Source: Candidatus Acidulodesulfobacterium acidiphilum (GTDB lineage Bacteria; SZUA-79; Acidulodesulfobacterales; Acidulodesulfobacteraceae). Taken from it: 64,000 bases of DNA. The notes under the pieces were generated by a model. It was not told the origin of the DNA. It worked only from the letters and a program-made list of their open reading frames with translations, and made no database searches. The position numbers were made by a program, and so were the translations under genes. This document shows, one piece after another, positions 6,980 through 13,211 of this stretch; the stretch's first letter is position 1, and every line of letters starts with the position of its first letter. Where the stretch lies: the NCBI GenBank assembly GCA_008534395.1, contig SHMQ01000001.1, positions 1 to 64,000 of the forward strand. Reading direction: 5' to 3'.

Positions 6980-8473
6980 TTATTTTATTTTAAAATTTAT
7001 GATATGGACTATCCCAATTAATAAATTATGCAGACCGCTTGGAATATAAAATCCTAAAATTAACGATGCCGCGAGCGGCAGTAACATAGGCACATATGAA
7101 AACGGCGAAAAATCGCCTCTTTCCTCGTTAAAATTTTCGTCCGCTTTACCGAAAACCATTGAACCAGATTTCGTGAGTAAGCTTATAAAAGCAGCTAATA
7201 AAAAACCTATTAATATAACAGCTATCAAGTAATAACCGTCTTTTAAACTCTGAAGTATAATTAAAAATTCGCTTATAAAGATTACCGACGGAGGAACTCC
7301 GATCAACGCAACGGAACCTATAGAAAACAAAAAAGCGGTTTTCGGCATAATATGAAAAACTCCCTTGATTTTTTTAATATTTTTAGTCTTGAACTTATGT
7401 AAAAAATTCCCGGCGCCGAAATACATTGTAGATTTTGTCAGGGTGTGTCCCAACATCTGTAAAAGCGCCCCAAACGTTCCAAATATTCCGCCAAGACCGA
7501 AACCTAAAGTAATTATTCCCATATGCTCTATGCTGGAATAAGCAAAAAGCCTTTTTGAACTGTTTTGGTAAATTATTCCCATTACTCCTATAAAAATTGA
7601 GAATATGCCTACAGCAATAAGTATAACCTCGGGATAACCGAACCCTAAGCTTTTTCCGGCAATACCGAAATATCTAATAATACCGTATAGGGCTACGTTT
7701 TCTAAGGATGCCGATAGCATAGCCGATACGGGAGAAGGTGCTTCCGAATAGGCGTCGGGAACCCATGTATGCATAGGAGCAAGTCCTACTTTTGTCCCTA
7801 ATCCTATTACTATTAATACAAAAGCTATACGCACTATACCTTCGTTAAGATAAACGGCATTTGAACCAAGAACCGTCCAGTCTAAAGATGAAACTATGTT
7901 TGCGCTTCCAGGAATGTTTCCTGAAAGGTAGAATAAGATTGTGCCTAGAAGAGCAAGCGATATTCCGGAAGACACTACTAAAATATATTTCCATGCAGCT
8001 TCTATAGATTTTTCGGTAACCTCGGATATTACCAAAAAGGAGCTTGTAATAGTCGTAAGTTCGATATCTATAAGGTAAACCGCCATATTATTAATCATAG
8101 GGGCAACCAGCATAGTCAACGCAAAAAGATTAAAAAAAAGTTCATACCTAAAAAATTCATTTTCGGTCATCTTTTCATTATTTATAGCGAGCCTCATATA
8201 TGAAATACTGTAAATAGACGAAAGAAAATAAACTATACTTACAAGCAGAATTAAATAAGCGGAAAATTTGTCTATTGCTATCGCATTATTAAACAAAAAA
8301 ATCGGTTTAAAATTTAACACAAAATAAAGAATAATAAACGCGCCTATAATATCTAAAGAAGATGCTAAAAGACTTATGTATTCCGCAAATCTTTTATTTT
8401 TTAAAATATAAGAACTTAAAGATGCGACTATCGGAATTATCAAAACTATAACTATAAAAAGTTTCATATTCAT
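6980..8473 (-). CDS. Antiporter-like membrane subunit (HyfF/NuoN-M-like) of the Ehr complex
   Basis: Second antiporter-like membrane subunit of the complex, 497 residues with about 13-14 membrane segments. Family charges are retained: Glu in YLIDIELTTITSSF, Lys in LGTKVGLAPMHTWVPDAY, and Lys in LGHTLTKSTMYFGAGN. It starts 6 nt after the HyfE-like gene and is followed 20 nt later by the large-subunit gene. With the HyfB-like protein it gives the complex two potential ion-translocating half channels, against three in complex I. Confidence 0.88.
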   Translation of the reverse strand: MNMKLFIVIVLIIPIVASLSSYILKNKRFAEYISLLASSLDIIGAFIILYFVLNFKPIFLFNNAIAIDKFSAYLILLVSIVYFLSSIYSISYMRLAINNEKMTENEFFRYELFFNLFALTMLVAPMINNMAVYLIDIELTTITSSFLVISEVTEKSIEAAWKYILVVSSGISLALLGTILFYLSGNIPGSANIVSSLDWTVLGSNAVYLNEGIVRIAFVLIVIGLGTKVGLAPMHTWVPDAYSEAPSPVSAMLSASLENVALYGIIRYFGIAGKSLGFGYPEVILIAVGIFSIFIGVMGIIYQNSSKRLFAYSSIEHMGIITLGFGLGGIFGTFGALLQMLGHTLTKSTMYFGAGNFLHKFKTKNIKKIKGVFHIMPKTAFLFSIGSVALIGVPPSVIFISEFLIILQSLKDGYYLIAVILIGFLLAAFISLLTKSGSMVFGKADENFNEERGDFSPFSYVPMLLPLAASLILGFYIPSGLHNLLIGIVHIINFKIK

Positions 8474-8479
8474 ATGATT

Positions 8480-9154
8480 TTAACCTACCAGTCTGTTTAA
8501 CATAGAAGTGGAAAATGATCCCGTCCGCATCTTCATAAACATCGAAAGAATCAGCATTGCCGTTACCGTTACCAGAATATCGAATAAAACTACCAGCTCT
8601 ACTATTATCGGAAGAGTTGGAACTACGACGACCGATAAAAGAAATATTCCATTTTCTATAACAAGAAGTCCCAAAATATGCGTTATCGTAGTAAATCTCG
8701 AGATAATCATAAAAAATCCTACAAATATTAAACTTAAAGCAATTGAAGCAACATTTACGACTATTTTAGAAGAAAACGGGGAAATCAATCTGTATATCAA
8801 AAAATAGGCAAAAACCGTTAAAACAACGCCTGAAATAATTGAAAACGGTATTTTAAGGGTCAATTTTACTTCTTCTTTAATGTTAAATTTTTTTATCATT
8901 TTTAAAAGAATGTAAGGAACAAATATAGTTCTTACGAAAAGCGTTAAAAAAGCGACAAGATACAAATCTACGCTTTGGGCTTCTATTCCCAGAATCAGGG
9001 TAAGGACGAATATTAAAAATGACTGGAAACCGTAAGCGTGTATATAAAACGAAATCCATCTAGAACTCAGCATTACGAACGAGGACAAAAGAACCATCGA
9101 TACCAGAAGGTCTTCGATAACGTAAATGTAAAGCGGCATTGAGTATCCAAGCAT
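8480..9154 (-). CDS. HyfE-like membrane subunit (NuoK-related) of the Ehr complex
   Basis: Integral membrane protein of 224 residues with about seven hydrophobic segments, the size and profile of HyfE from hydrogenase-4 type complexes. The C-terminal half resembles NuoK (LLVIENGIFLLSVVV), with the Glu that contributes to the ion path. It sits 3 nt after the HyfC-like gene and 6 nt before the HyfF-like gene, within one transcription unit. Assignment rests on size, membrane pattern, the short motif and gene order. Confidence 0.8.
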   Translation of the reverse strand: MLGYSMPLYIYVIEDLLVSMVLLSSFVMLSSRWISFYIHAYGFQSFLIFVLTLILGIEAQSVDLYLVAFLTLFVRTIFVPYILLKMIKKFNIKEEVKLTLKIPFSIISGVVLTVFAYFLIYRLISPFSSKIVVNVASIALSLIFVGFFMIISRFTTITHILGLLVIENGIFLLSVVVVPTLPIIVELVVLFDILVTVTAMLILSMFMKMRTGSFSTSMLNRLVG

Positions 9155-9157
9155 TTT

Positions 9158-10129
9158 TTAAAACCCCTTGTATTGAAAAGTCATTATGGCAAGCACGCTT
9201 AAAACAAACGCGGCTCCGAAATATTCTTGATACCTGAAAAACCTTAATCTTGAAATTGCCGTATCTATCACTGCGGCGATTACCCCGATTGCAAGCATTT
9301 TTATAACAAGGGTTGCTATAGCTATAATAAGAGAGACCGGCGTATGATTTACAGCTAAACCCCATGGAAAAACCAGAACGTTCAAAAAAATAACTAAAAG
9401 TAAAAACTGCTTCATGTATCCCGCCCATTTTAATAATGCCAGATACGGCCCCGAGTATTGTAAAATCCTAGCTTCCTCAATCATACTCATCTCGGCATGG
9501 GTAGAAGCGTTAATAGGCCTCCTGTCCGTATCGGCTAAAAATAACAGGAAAAAGGCGGCAATTATCATAAAATGCGGCGAACTGAAATAAAGAGGCAGGG
9601 ACGCAGTTATAGTATGAAGCATAACATAAGGAAGAGTCGATTTTGCGATTAAAGCAACGCCTACAAAAACAAGAATTAAGGTAGGTTCGGAAAGAATGGC
9701 AAGAAGGGTGGCGCGCGAAGAACCTAACCCGCCATAGCTTGTGCCGAGGTCAAGGGACGCAATATTTATAAAAAATGATGAAAGAGAAAACAGAAACGCT
9801 CCGCCCAGCATATCGCCCATAAACCCGAGAGGAAGCGGATATGCCGTTAAAACAGGAATCAGAAGGGTTATGAGTATCATCGAAATAAAAGAAACAAACG
9901 GAGCCGACCTAAAGACAAACGATGCATCCTTCGGTATTAAAATTTCTTTATGAAAAAGTTTATAGAGGTCGTAATATGGCTGAAAAACCGACGGTCCGGT
10001 CTTGCCTTCTATGATTTCTTCCGCTTTCGATATAAACCCTGCGATAAATGGAGAACTTAATATAACCGTTAGAACCTGAAAGACTTGAAAAACGGTCGAA
10101 TTTAGGCATAAATTTAGATAGCCGCTCAT
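9158..10129 (-). CDS. HyfC/NuoH-like membrane anchor subunit of the Ehr complex
   Basis: First gene of the operon, 323 residues with about eight membrane helices. NuoH/HyfC proteins join the soluble arm to the membrane pump. The family signature TGPSVFQPYYDLYKLFHKE (about 40-58) is clear, and the acidic loop ADTDRRPINASTHAEMSM followed by SGPYLALLKWAGY near residues 195-235 matches the conserved loop that contacts the large subunit. A purine-rich AGGAG lies about 17 nt before the ATG, rather far for a ribosome-binding site. The 176-nt gap upstream probably carries the operon promoter, but I found no convincing -35/-10 pair. Confidence 0.87.
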   Translation of the reverse strand: MSGYLNLCLNSTVFQVFQVLTVILSSPFIAGFISKAEEIIEGKTGPSVFQPYYDLYKLFHKEILIPKDASFVFRSAPFVSFISMILITLLIPVLTAYPLPLGFMGDMLGGAFLFSLSSFFINIASLDLGTSYGGLGSSRATLLAILSEPTLILVFVGVALIAKSTLPYVMLHTITASLPLYFSSPHFMIIAAFFLLFLADTDRRPINASTHAEMSMIEEARILQYSGPYLALLKWAGYMKQFLLLVIFLNVLVFPWGLAVNHTPVSLIIAIATLVIKMLAIGVIAAVIDTAISRLRFFRYQEYFGAAFVLSVLAIMTFQYKGF

Positions 10130-10305: not shown

Positions 10306-10758
10306 TCAAGAAATTATTTTTTTATTTTTAAGATATTTTATTATGTTTAAATAAACATTACAAATATCTTCGAAGACCGTCGTCGCCAGTTTTATATCTT
10401 TTACGATTTCCTCTTCATTAAGAGGATATTCATGCGATAAACCGTTCCTTAATTCCCTATAATCATTCCATTTATCTGCGCTGTCTATTATTTCTAATTT
10501 TTCCATTTTATCAAGAATGTCTATAAAAGACATATTTCTTTTATATTCTCCTAAACTCGCCAAAACTTCCTTAAAAAGCTTTTCGCCCATTAAGTCCTGA
10601 ATTTTAATAAAACGAAAAATAAAAGAATCTATAACGCGCCTTTTGTTATCGTCGTCAAAAAATTGCGGCATTAACGCATTCCAAGATTTTATTTCTTTAT
10701 AATCGCTTTCGGCTCTTTTTATATTAATATCAATAATTTCAAGCGTTTCTTCTAACAT
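10306..10758 (-). CDS. hepT: HepT-like HEPN toxin (HI0074 family)
   Basis: HEPN-domain protein, 150 residues, mostly helical. It carries the catalytic RX4HXY motif as RNGLSHEY (R104, H109, Y111), typical of HepT toxins that act as RNases. In the characterised HepT-MntA systems the partner nucleotidyltransferase neutralises the toxin by AMPylating the Tyr of this motif. The gene overlaps its partner by 7 nt and is translated second. The residues needed for toxicity and for neutralisation are both visible, so this is probably a working toxin-antitoxin module, although such pairs are often domesticated. Confidence 0.82.
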   Translation of the reverse strand: MLEETLEIIDINIKRAESDYKEIKSWNALMPQFFDDDNKRRVIDSFIFRFIKIQDLMGEKLFKEVLASLGEYKRNMSFIDILDKMEKLEIIDSADKWNDYRELRNGLSHEYPLNEEEIVKDIKLATTVFEDICNVYLNIIKYLKNKKIIS

Positions 10759-11048
10759 AGTAAAATTCCCTCGTTCTTAGCCGTTTCCTGAATAGGCTTA
10801 AATTGAGAAGAAGGAGTTTTTACTATTAAATCCACTTTTCTGTCTGCCGCAAGCCTGCGAAAGCTTGTTAAAAACTTAAGTTCTGCAAGTTTTTCGATAT
10901 CTTTATCAGTTTCAATTAATATATCTATATCTCCGCCCTTCTTATCGTCGTATATTCTGCTTCCGAAAAGATAAACTTTAGCATTATTGCCGAAGTATTT
11001 TTTTGCCTGTTCTATCAATACCCTTTTTTCTAAATCGGAAAGTCTCAT
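10752..11048 (-). CDS. mntA: MntA-like minimal nucleotidyltransferase antitoxin
   Basis: Minimal nucleotidyltransferase, 98 residues. The GS...DxD motif is seen in LFGSRIYDDKKGGDIDILIE, where the two Asp residues should bind metal; a further Asp lies in RKVDLIVKT. It precedes and overlaps the HepT-like gene by 7 nt, the antitoxin-first order common for this pair. Function as an antitoxin by AMPylation is inferred from the family and the partner's intact RX4HXY motif. About 150 nt of AT-rich, gene-free DNA lies upstream. Confidence 0.82.
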   Translation of the reverse strand: MRLSDLEKRVLIEQAKKYFGNNAKVYLFGSRIYDDKKGGDIDILIETDKDIEKLAELKFLTSFRRLAADRKVDLIVKTPSSQFKPIQETAKNEGILLC

Positions 11049-11205: not shown

Positions 11206-11934
11206 CTATATTGCCGTATTGGATATTGCATTATTCTGCAATTCCGTGATTTTTGCAACCGCCTTTTTAGAAAGGTTATAAAGTTTGTCGAGAACTTCAA
11301 ATTCTATAGGCGTTTTTTCGGCGCATCCCTGAATTTCGATAATTTTTTGGCTGCCCGTCATTATAAAATTAAAATCCAGATCGGCGGTCGAGTCTTCCGA
11401 ATAATCTAAATCTACCAGAATTTCTCCGTTTACTATGCCTATGCTTATTGCGGCGACGGAGTCGTAAAACGGCATTTTTTCAATTTTTTCTTGTTTTATG
11501 AGATTTAAAAACGCTAAGTATGCGGCTACGTAAGCGCCGGTTATGGAAGCCGTTCTCGTTCCGCCGTCGGCGTTTATAACGTCGCAGTCTATAAGAATAG
11601 TTATGCCGGGAAAATATGAAAAATTAATAACCGACCTAAGCGACCTGCCGATTAATCTCTGTATCTCCTGCGCCCGCCCGTTTACTTTTCCTTTTGACGA
11701 ATCCCTCGGTATTCTGCTTTGCGCAGACCTTGGGAGCATCGAATATTCCGCCGTAAGCCATCCTTCTTCTTTGTCTTTTAAAAACGGCGGCACCTTATAA
11801 TCTACGGATGCGGTGCATATTACTTTAGTATCTCCCGCTTCAACGAGACAAGAACCTTCGGCATATTTCATATAACCCGGAGTTATAAGCATAGGTCTCA
11901 TTTCGTCGACAGCTCTATTATTGTTTCTTAACAT
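11206..11934 (-). CDS. rph: Ribonuclease PH
   Basis: Phosphorolytic 3'-5' exoribonuclease that trims tRNA 3' ends, 242 residues, the usual length. Typical motifs are seen: EGSCLVEAGDTKVICTASVD, GWLTAEYSMLPRS, GRAQEIQRLIGRSLR, DCDVINADGGTRTASITGA and DLDYSEDSTADLDFNF. It is the last gene of the long minus-strand cluster and follows the UGA-containing TusA-like gene by only 6 nt, so the two are probably co-transcribed. Confidence 0.96.
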   Translation of the reverse strand: MLRNNNRAVDEMRPMLITPGYMKYAEGSCLVEAGDTKVICTASVDYKVPPFLKDKEEGWLTAEYSMLPRSAQSRIPRDSSKGKVNGRAQEIQRLIGRSLRSVINFSYFPGITILIDCDVINADGGTRTASITGAYVAAYLAFLNLIKQEKIEKMPFYDSVAAISIGIVNGEILVDLDYSEDSTADLDFNFIMTGSQKIIEIQGCAEKTPIEFEVLDKLYNLSKKAVAKITELQNNAISNTAI

Positions 11935-11940
11935 TTTTAT

Positions 11941-12198
11941 TTATTCCCAGTTTTTATTTTTTATGAAAAATACATAAAGGTCTTTTAAGTTTACCGCATT
12001 TAGCAACTGCACGCCCATTAAAGAACATAATGCGGGTATATCGTTTAACAAAGAATCCTTATCCGAAATTACGGTTAAGATATCGTTTTGTTTCAAAGTT
12101 TTAAGTTTACGGACGACCGCCCATACCGGAGGGCCTCAGCAAAGCCCTCTGATGTCGAGTACGTTAATGCCGTAATTTAATAGTTGTTTGTTCTCCAT
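11941..12198 (-). CDS. TusA-family selenoprotein (in-frame UGA at the catalytic Cys)
   Basis: Reading through one TGA (codon 21, positions 12136-12138) gives an 85-residue protein that ends at TAA 11941-11943. It starts MENKQLLNYGINVLDIRGLC-U-GPPVWAVVRKL and continues through DILTVISDKDSLLNDIPAL, CSLMGVQLLNAV and LKDLYVFFIKN. This follows the whole TusA/SirA fold, including the helix motif DIPxxCxxM. Sec aligns with the catalytic Cys of the TusA CPxP motif (GLRCPEP against GLCUGPP) and is preceded by a Cys. TusA proteins relay persulfide sulfur for tRNA thiolation or sulfur oxidation; SirA-like selenoproteins have been described. A SECIS-like hairpin follows the UGA. Similarity on both sides of the UGA and a clean frame argue against a pseudogene. 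It lies between nusB and rph. No sel genes are in the window. Confidence 0.85.
12108..12125 (-). promoter_or_regulatory. Candidate bacterial SECIS element
   Basis: In the mRNA, 10 nt after the UGA, UAUGGGC (12125-12119) pairs with GUCCGUA (12114-12108) around the tetraloop GGUC (12118-12115). The seven pairs include two G-U wobbles. The first loop G is 18 nt from the UGA. Bacterial SECIS elements need a short stem, an apical loop with G in its first two positions and roughly this distance; E. coli fdhF uses a loop containing GGUC. The hairpin is inside the coding region, as bacterial elements are. Confidence 0.75.
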
Positions 12199-12247
12199 TT
12201 TTACCCCTTTCTAATTTGATTAGTTAAGTTTTATCTGCCGAATTAAC

Positions 12248-12709
12248 TTATTTAACCTTTATCGCCGCATCTAAAATACCGTTAATAAATGCAGGAGATT
12301 CGTCGTTTCCAAATTTTTTTGCGATTTCTACCGCCTCGTTAATAACGACGTTTTTGGGAGTTTCAGGCGCAAAAATAATCTCGTAAATAGAAAGCCTCAA
12401 TAAATTTCTGTCCACGCGCGACATTCTTTCTATACTCCAGTTTTTGGAAATATTTTTTATTACTTCGTCGATTTTTTTTAAATTTATCAGCGTTCCCTTA
12501 ACTATTGAAGAAAAAAAATCTAATATTTCCGCTGTATCTTTCTTTTTATTTAAATCTTCTTTTGTTTTTATAAATCCGTCTCTCTTTAGGCTTTCCACCG
12601 CAAAATCGTTATAAAATCTGTTTATTTTATAATCCAAGTTGCTTATATCGCCGTCTTCTTCGTATAAAAACTGCAACGCCAGCTCTCTTGCTTTTCTTCT
12701 TTTGGTCAT
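12248..12709 (-). CDS. nusB: Transcription antitermination factor NusB
   Basis: RNA-binding antitermination factor that works with NusE/S10 at boxA sites in rRNA operons. I place the start at the ATG 12707-12709 (MTKRRKARELALQFLYEEDG), which is the conserved NusB N-terminus and gives 153 residues. A longer frame upstream would run into ribH and adds nothing conserved. C-terminal motifs WSIERMSRVDRNLLRLSIYE and NVVINEAVEIAKKFG are typical. It follows ribH by 16 nt, the common ribH-nusB arrangement. A Lys-rich insertion lies around residues 50-75. Confidence 0.93.
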   Translation of the reverse strand: MTKRRKARELALQFLYEEDGDISNLDYKINRFYNDFAVESLKRDGFIKTKEDLNKKKDTAEILDFFSSIVKGTLINLKKIDEVIKNISKNWSIERMSRVDRNLLRLSIYEIIFAPETPKNVVINEAVEIAKKFGNDESPAFINGILDAAIKVK

Positions 12710-12725
12710 ATACGGCTTTTTATTT

Positions 12726-13211
12726 TCAGCTCTTCTTAATTTTTGCGTAAAGACTTGCCATTTCGACCGCAGACATTGCGGCATCGAAACCTTTATTGCC
12801 CATCTTAGTTCCTGCGCGCGATATAGCCTGTTCTATTGATTCCGCAGTTATAATTCCGTAACTTACCGGAACGTTATAATGAATCGAAAGTTCGGAAATT
12901 AATTTCGTAACTTGATTAGATAAAAGGTCAAAGTGAGTGGTCTCGCCTCTTATTAACGTTCCCAAGCATATTACGGCGTCATATTTTTTTGTTTCCAGCA
13001 GCATTTTTACAGCCATAGGAATTTCAAACGCTCCGGGGACTTTTACTACGGAAACGTTATCATCCACAGCGCCAGCTCTTTTAAGATAATCTAAGGCTCC
13101 GGACAAAAGTTTGCCGTTAATAAAATCGTTAAATCTCGATATAACTATGCCGAATTTAAAACCGGCGGCTTTCAGCTCTCCTTCAATCAAATTAAAACCG
13201 TGCATTCCCAT
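12726..13211 (-). CDS. ribH: 6,7-dimethyl-8-ribityllumazine synthase
   Basis: Condenses 5-amino-6-ribitylaminouracil with 3,4-dihydroxybutanone 4-phosphate to form lumazine, the step before riboflavin. At 161 residues it has the standard length. Visible signatures are ISRFND, VPGAFEIPMAVK, CLGTLIRGETTHFDLL (with the catalytic His) and NKGFDAAMSAVEMA. It lies 43 nt after ribBA and 16 nt before nusB. Confidence 0.96.
   Translation of the reverse strand: MGMHGFNLIEGELKAAGFKFGIVISRFNDFINGKLLSGALDYLKRAGAVDDNVSVVKVPGAFEIPMAVKMLLETKKYDAVICLGTLIRGETTHFDLLSNQVTKLISELSIHYNVPVSYGIITAESIEQAISRAGTKMGNKGFDAAMSAVEMASLYAKIKKS

Follow-up and report, generated by a model that had tools for sequence, protein, structure and literature searches.

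The question raised by this locus is whether a short reading frame carrying a single internal TGA encodes a selenoprotein of the TusA family and, if so, what selenium would do in such a protein. The gene, here called tusA-Sec, lies on the reverse strand at positions 11941-12198 of the window, the 64,000-nucleotide stretch of DNA that was analysed; its ATG is at 12196-12198, its TAA at 11941-11943, and a Shine-Dalgarno-like AAAGGGG can be read just upstream of the ATG (12204-12210). Only one of its 85 codons, codon 21 at 12136-12138, is an in-frame TGA, and the translation with TGA as U is MENKQLLNYGINVLDIRGLCUGPPVWAVVRKLKTLKQNDILTVISDKDSLLNDIPALCSLMGVQLLNAVNLKDLYVFFIKNKNWE*. The Pfam TusA model (PF01206) matches residues 13-80 of the product (E 1.5e-12; 47.6 bits, compared with a cut-off of 28.6) with codon 21 read as either Cys or Sec. 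This match spans both sides of the TGA, in agreement with an earlier sequence-only reading in which one TGA splits an otherwise complete 85-residue TusA protein with family similarity before and after it. When the parts of the window otherwise free of genes were scanned for frames interrupted by just one TGA, tusA-Sec was the sole credible hit; the other one was serine-rich and unconvincing. Because a Sec codon resembles a stop, gene finders are expected to cut tusA-Sec short or to overlook it.

The predicted structure places the product within the TusA fold. An AlphaFold2 model from a 22-row alignment has a pLDDT of 88, and its best solved match in Foldseek is E. coli TusA in the IscS-TusA complex (TM 0.79/0.87). 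The profile alignment sets U21 against the Cys of the TusA motif GLRCPEP, where the sequence-only reading had placed the TGA; in E. coli TusA, this Cys accepts the sulfur from IscS. The fold, length, and nucleophile position are shared with the TusA/SirA family (PF01206; E. coli TusA, PDB 3LVJ and 1DCJ), as are the LDxxGL before the active site and the DIP-x-x-C after it. In contrast to the LDxxGLxCPxP of canonical TusA, however, tusA-Sec has LDIRGLC-U-GPP, in which Sec replaces Cys and an extra Cys20 (codon TGC at 12139-12141), invariant in 22 of 22 aligned orthologues, stands just before the nucleophile. The CPxP motif is not kept but becomes UGPP, the nucleophile position being Sec, the last Pro retained, and the first Pro changed to Gly; the protein is therefore a TusA variant rather than a canonical member. 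It scores 47 bits with the NCBIfam TusA equivalog NF001423, whose curated cut-off is 78. The YedF models NF008242 and TIGR03527 give 27.4 (cut-off 79) and 14 bits (cut-off 110), respectively, through the TusA domain only.

The internal TGA is conserved in the lineage. A protein-query search of 41 genomes yielded a long match with exactly one internal TGA in 23 of 25 family members. An alignment-query search of 30 genomes of the Ca. Acidulodesulfobacterales/SZUA-79 family, which was identified from named records (mostly environmental MAGs, including Ca. Acididesulfobacter diazotrophicus), found tusA-Sec in 27 of them, spanning six genera; each copy has one TGA, and its codon position never varies. 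No variation is seen across the 22 aligned sequences in the segment D15-I-R-G-L-C-U-G22, and Cys58 is invariant alongside the CU pair. The gene order ribH-nusB-tusA-Sec is found in 27/27, with rph next in 25/27, which supports the operon-like placement between nusB and rph proposed earlier. In the window, all three neighbours are on the reverse strand: ribH (6,7-dimethyl-8-ribityllumazine synthase) at 12726-13211, nusB at 12248-12784, whose 5′ end overlaps ribH so that a later start is likely, and rph (RNase PH) at 11206-11934, which starts 6 nt past the tusA-Sec stop. Farther along the same strand, adjacent small nucleotidyltransferase (MNT) and HEPN-like substrate-binding genes at 10306-11048 are likely an MNT/HEPN toxin-antitoxin pair, and genes at 6980-10129 resemble hydrogenase-4/formate hydrogenlyase-type membrane subunits.

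Three of the 30 family genomes do not have tusA-Sec. Two of these are also without nusB, and the locus is therefore probably absent from those MAGs. In the third, G011, nusB runs straight into rph; this is a clean loss of the gene with no decay, and because that relative has lost it, tusA-Sec is dispensable there. The internal stop and the loss in G011 could be taken to favour a pseudogene or a sequencing error, with the TGA as a plain nonsense mutation. This explanation was rejected as extremely improbable, since the identical TGA, with no other internal stop, occurs in 27 separately assembled genomes, G011 shows a clean deletion rather than decay, and coding selection continues downstream together with the covarying SECIS hairpin described below. 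The median dN/dS past the TGA is 0.11, with a range of 0.05-0.33 (62 codons, 137 unsaturated pairs). Moreover, a search for random stops and frameshifts in the relatives, the outcome that the sequence-only reading had set against itself, found no decayed copy among the 30 family genomes, only copies with one TGA at codon 21.

The same reading had described a hairpin with a GGUC loop 10 nt downstream of the UGA. It lies where it was placed, at 12108-12125 (reverse strand), with a 7-bp stem formed by 12119-12125 and 12108-12114 and an apical GGUC loop at 12115-12118. The UGA is 10 nt from the stem and 17 nt from the loop, so that the loop begins at the 18th nucleotide. The hairpin folds with an MFE of -7.6 kcal/mol (z -2.65), and the window sequence is within all four published limits of the bSECIS model (7 bp, GGUC, 17 nt, and -7.6 kcal/mol). 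Of four other orthologues folded, the energy limit is reached by L039 (-10.4) and missed by L030 (-7.4), L036 (-7.0), and L031 (-5.3). In the alignment, columns 14-20 pair with columns 25-31 around an invariant GGUC loop, standard pairs form in 95.5% of the stem cells, and in three pairs both bases differ among sequences (A-U to U-A, U-A to C-G, and G-C to U-G or U-A). The stem covariation is 0.351, compared with 0.165 in shuffled alignments, and none of 500 shuffles was as high for pairing or covariation; 21 cells carry double changes versus 9.3 in the shuffles, and slid controls collapse. RNAalifold recovers the same hairpin unaided. When sequences are folded singly, the MFE structure is often a competing one, sometimes the more stable, in which the GGUC element pairs with GGCC beside the UGA. 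This alternative was rejected as the SECIS: it shows no covariation, and 13 of the 22 rows break one of its pairs. In addition, all 26 sequences encode Val28 by GTC, and synonymous sites, free in most codons elsewhere, are constrained under the hairpin. Together with the purifying dN/dS, these fixed synonymous sites indicate that both the protein and the RNA are constrained. The loop of the selD hairpin in the same genome also starts with GG.

The machinery for Sec insertion was then considered, since the sequence-only reading had proposed looking for selA, selB, selC, and selD in the same genome. The first, second, and fourth of these are present, and selC was not found there, though it occurs widely in the family. 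SelB is encoded by a 652-aa ORF on a contig other than that of selA and selD, which are both on contig C4; SelD has its own Sec, with an in-frame TGA in an HGUGCK loop. On C4, selD (L059:10581-11648) is followed by an ASKHA/DUF4445-like gene at 11679-12947, and selA lies approximately 4 kb upstream of selD with Mla-like transport genes between them. A tRNA-Sec above the Rfam cut-off is found in 25 of the 30 family genomes, with the anticodon UCA in those checked. None above the cut-off was found in the 70-contig assembly of the organism itself, where the inspected sub-cut-off matches proved to be tRNA-Leu, -Ser, -Trp, and -Arg genes. Four further MAGs of the family (G002, G007, G015, and G024), including the nearest relative, are also without selC, and its absence across these MAGs may be a recurrent assembly problem. 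In two relatives, tRNA-Sec is about 130-140 nt from a tRNA-Ser(GGA), and contig C64 of the organism's assembly (L146) starts at base 1 inside tRNA-Ser(GGA); its selC therefore probably lies in the gap at this contig break. The other flank of tRNA-Sec in the relatives maps to contig C22, which does not lead to a tRNA-Sec, and synteny is therefore broken on that side.

These genes also bear on whether the TGA could be read as another amino acid, such as Trp, by a changed code, or could end a 20-aa leader peptide by regulatory termination. The frame would indeed be open with any residue at the TGA. Two orthologues, however, terminate on TGA, which is therefore still a stop; the group possesses SelA, SelB, SelD, and tRNA-Sec; the codon occupies the position of the TusA Cys; and coding selection continues downstream. 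Both proposals were thus rejected, and we give them almost no chance. Collectively, we conclude, with a probability of about 0.9, that tusA-Sec encodes a genuine selenoprotein, a TusA in which the sulfur-accepting Cys is replaced by Sec. The earlier proposal of a TusA-family selenoprotein with Sec at the catalytic Cys thereby gains the support of orthologues, covariation, sel genes, and synteny, and from the same comparative evidence Sec insertion at codon 21 appears close to certain. In the proposed mechanism, SelB would recode the UGA while bound to the GGUC hairpin that lies 17 nt past it, and Sec-tRNA would be supplied by SelA from the selenophosphate made by SelD.

The nearest relatives of this selenoprotein are GLCC-type TusA paralogues (L040 and L044-L046), which show 41-45% identity and share an SDK..NDIPA.C block. 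They contain no TGA and have a vicinal Cys-Cys (GLCCSAP or GMCCSVP) where tusA-Sec has Cys-Sec; a comparison of homologues for U or C, as suggested earlier, thus finds U in the orthologues and Cys in the nearest paralogues. From the Cys-Cys of the motifs DITGLCCSAP and DITGMCCSVP, a vicinal di-Cys TusA can be suggested as the ancestor of the Sec form. In the tree of these short sequences, resolution is mostly poor, too poor to prove the direction, and a single branch splits the Sec from the GLCC forms (75/100). Paralogues with DITG[LM]CCSxP (e.g., L046:1486-1734) were seen in only four of the genomes searched, all of this family, and one is carried by G011, the genome without tusA-Sec. In each of the three GLCC-type loci read, the paralogue has a TetR-type regulator as its neighbour, and in two a nitroreductase-like gene adjoins it as well. 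The organism's own genome has canonical CPxP TusA genes, one of them between iscU-like and cysteine-desulfurase genes, and the Sec form is therefore an addition rather than the only TusA. A third TusA-like protein in this genome, with RGVSCCMPP (L154:3225-3482, contig C36), is encoded downstream of an ArsR-type regulator.

The sequence-only reading had also stated that SirA-like selenoproteins exist, a statement that did not hold up. A catalogue of May 2026 lists 119 prokaryotic selenoprotein families, among them rhodanese-like (forms 1-5), DsrE-like, and YeeE/YedE proteins, and has no TusA, SirA, or PF01206 entry; it cites a groundwater MAG survey as a source of further candidates (PMC13188914). 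SirA-like/YedF proteins appear in the selenium literature as CPxP proteins linked to SelD by gene neighbourhood and are not reported to contain Sec. TusA and SirA are not mentioned in the deep-Sep paper (PMC12013277) or in papers of 2022 (PMC9312934) and 2008 (PMC2398784), and no selenoprotein model of NCBIfam release 20 matches, the only matches being the TusA and YedF models, both below cut-off. The rhodanese-like, DsrE-like, and YeeE/YedE selenoproteins resemble tusA-Sec in being bacterial, predicted, and members of sulfur-handling families with Sec, but they belong to protein families other than TusA. Searches of about 620 other genomes, outside the family, gave no TGA-bearing TusA (356 in one search and the rest in further searches, part of which lacked a positive control, so that the null there shows little alone). 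Three outside-family matches that were inspected (L144, L145, and L155) are CPxP TusAs, and the viral contigs and plasmids searched contained no relative of tusA-Sec. We therefore regard tusA-Sec as a new selenoprotein variant of TusA, although the groundwater MAG survey may hold a prior mention.

TusA proteins are widespread sulfur carriers that serve tRNA thiolation, the molybdenum cofactor, thiosulfate uptake, and sulfur oxidation. In the proposed reaction, a cysteine desulfurase, a rhodanese, or a DsrE-type persulfide would donate sulfane sulfur to Sec21. The invariant Cys20 would resolve the resulting perselenosulfide, the sulfur being either passed on or released as sulfide with formation of a Cys20-Sec21 selenosulfide; Sec-TusA would act in this way beside the ordinary CPxP TusA proteins of the cell. 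To our knowledge, perselenosulfide chemistry resolved by a vicinal Cys has not been described for the TusA family. The "persulfide or redox carrier" of the sequence-only reading is likewise an inference. A perselenosulfide relay or a persulfide reductase seems most likely, and a role in sulfur relay or depersulfidation, that is, sulfur handling proper as opposed to other roles, has about even odds. The specific proposal of a selenium-based relay, with a perselenosulfide on Sec21 resolved by Cys20 and evolved from a Cys-Cys TusA, is tentative, and we would place it slightly short of an even chance. The neighbours ribH, nusB, and rph give no hint of a sulfur or selenium function. MAGs of the lineage contain dsrAB, dsrD, dsrL, and dsrEFH, with sulfate reduction and possibly sulfide oxidation proposed, and sirA-like transcripts have been reported with no mention of selenoproteins (PMC6776010).

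The same selenoprotein could instead have a redox job, as a selenosulfide-dependent reductase or peroxidase of persulfides or peroxides acting through the vicinal Cys20-Sec21. The invariant CU pair and Cys58, the loss of the first Pro of CPxP in UGPP, and the availability of canonical CPxP TusA proteins as sulfur carriers are consistent with such a role, and redox roles are expected for most uncharacterised selenoproteins by the authors of the catalogue (PMC13188914). TusA, however, is a sulfur-transfer fold rather than a thioredoxin-like oxidoreductase, and the protein has no CxxU or UxxC motif, which leaves the redox job doubtful. Furthermore, by analogy with the selD-linked YedF/SirA-like proteins, the protein could serve SelD-dependent metabolism as a carrier or sensor of selenium. 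YedF (TIGR03527), which shares the TusA domain and a selenium context in the literature, is tied by gene context to Sec lyase and SelD, and A1 members score weakly with the NCBIfam YedF. Unlike YedF, which adds a DsrE-like domain and adjoins the Sec-lyase and SelD genes, tusA-Sec encodes one domain with Sec; it sits with ribH, nusB, and rph rather than with sel genes, and its YedF score is below the cut-off (27 versus 79 bits), so that a carrier or sensor role appears quite unlikely.

Sec at the sulfur-accepting position of TusA would add a family to the prokaryotic selenoproteome and exemplifies the kind of gene that standard callers can be expected to cut short or overlook. Some of these genomes also encode a Cys-Cys relative, and the two together would offer a clean Sec/Cys pair for asking what benefit selenium brings to persulfide chemistry. 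In this deep-branching lineage of acid-mine bacteria, Sec-TusA would place selenium chemistry directly in sulfur trafficking.
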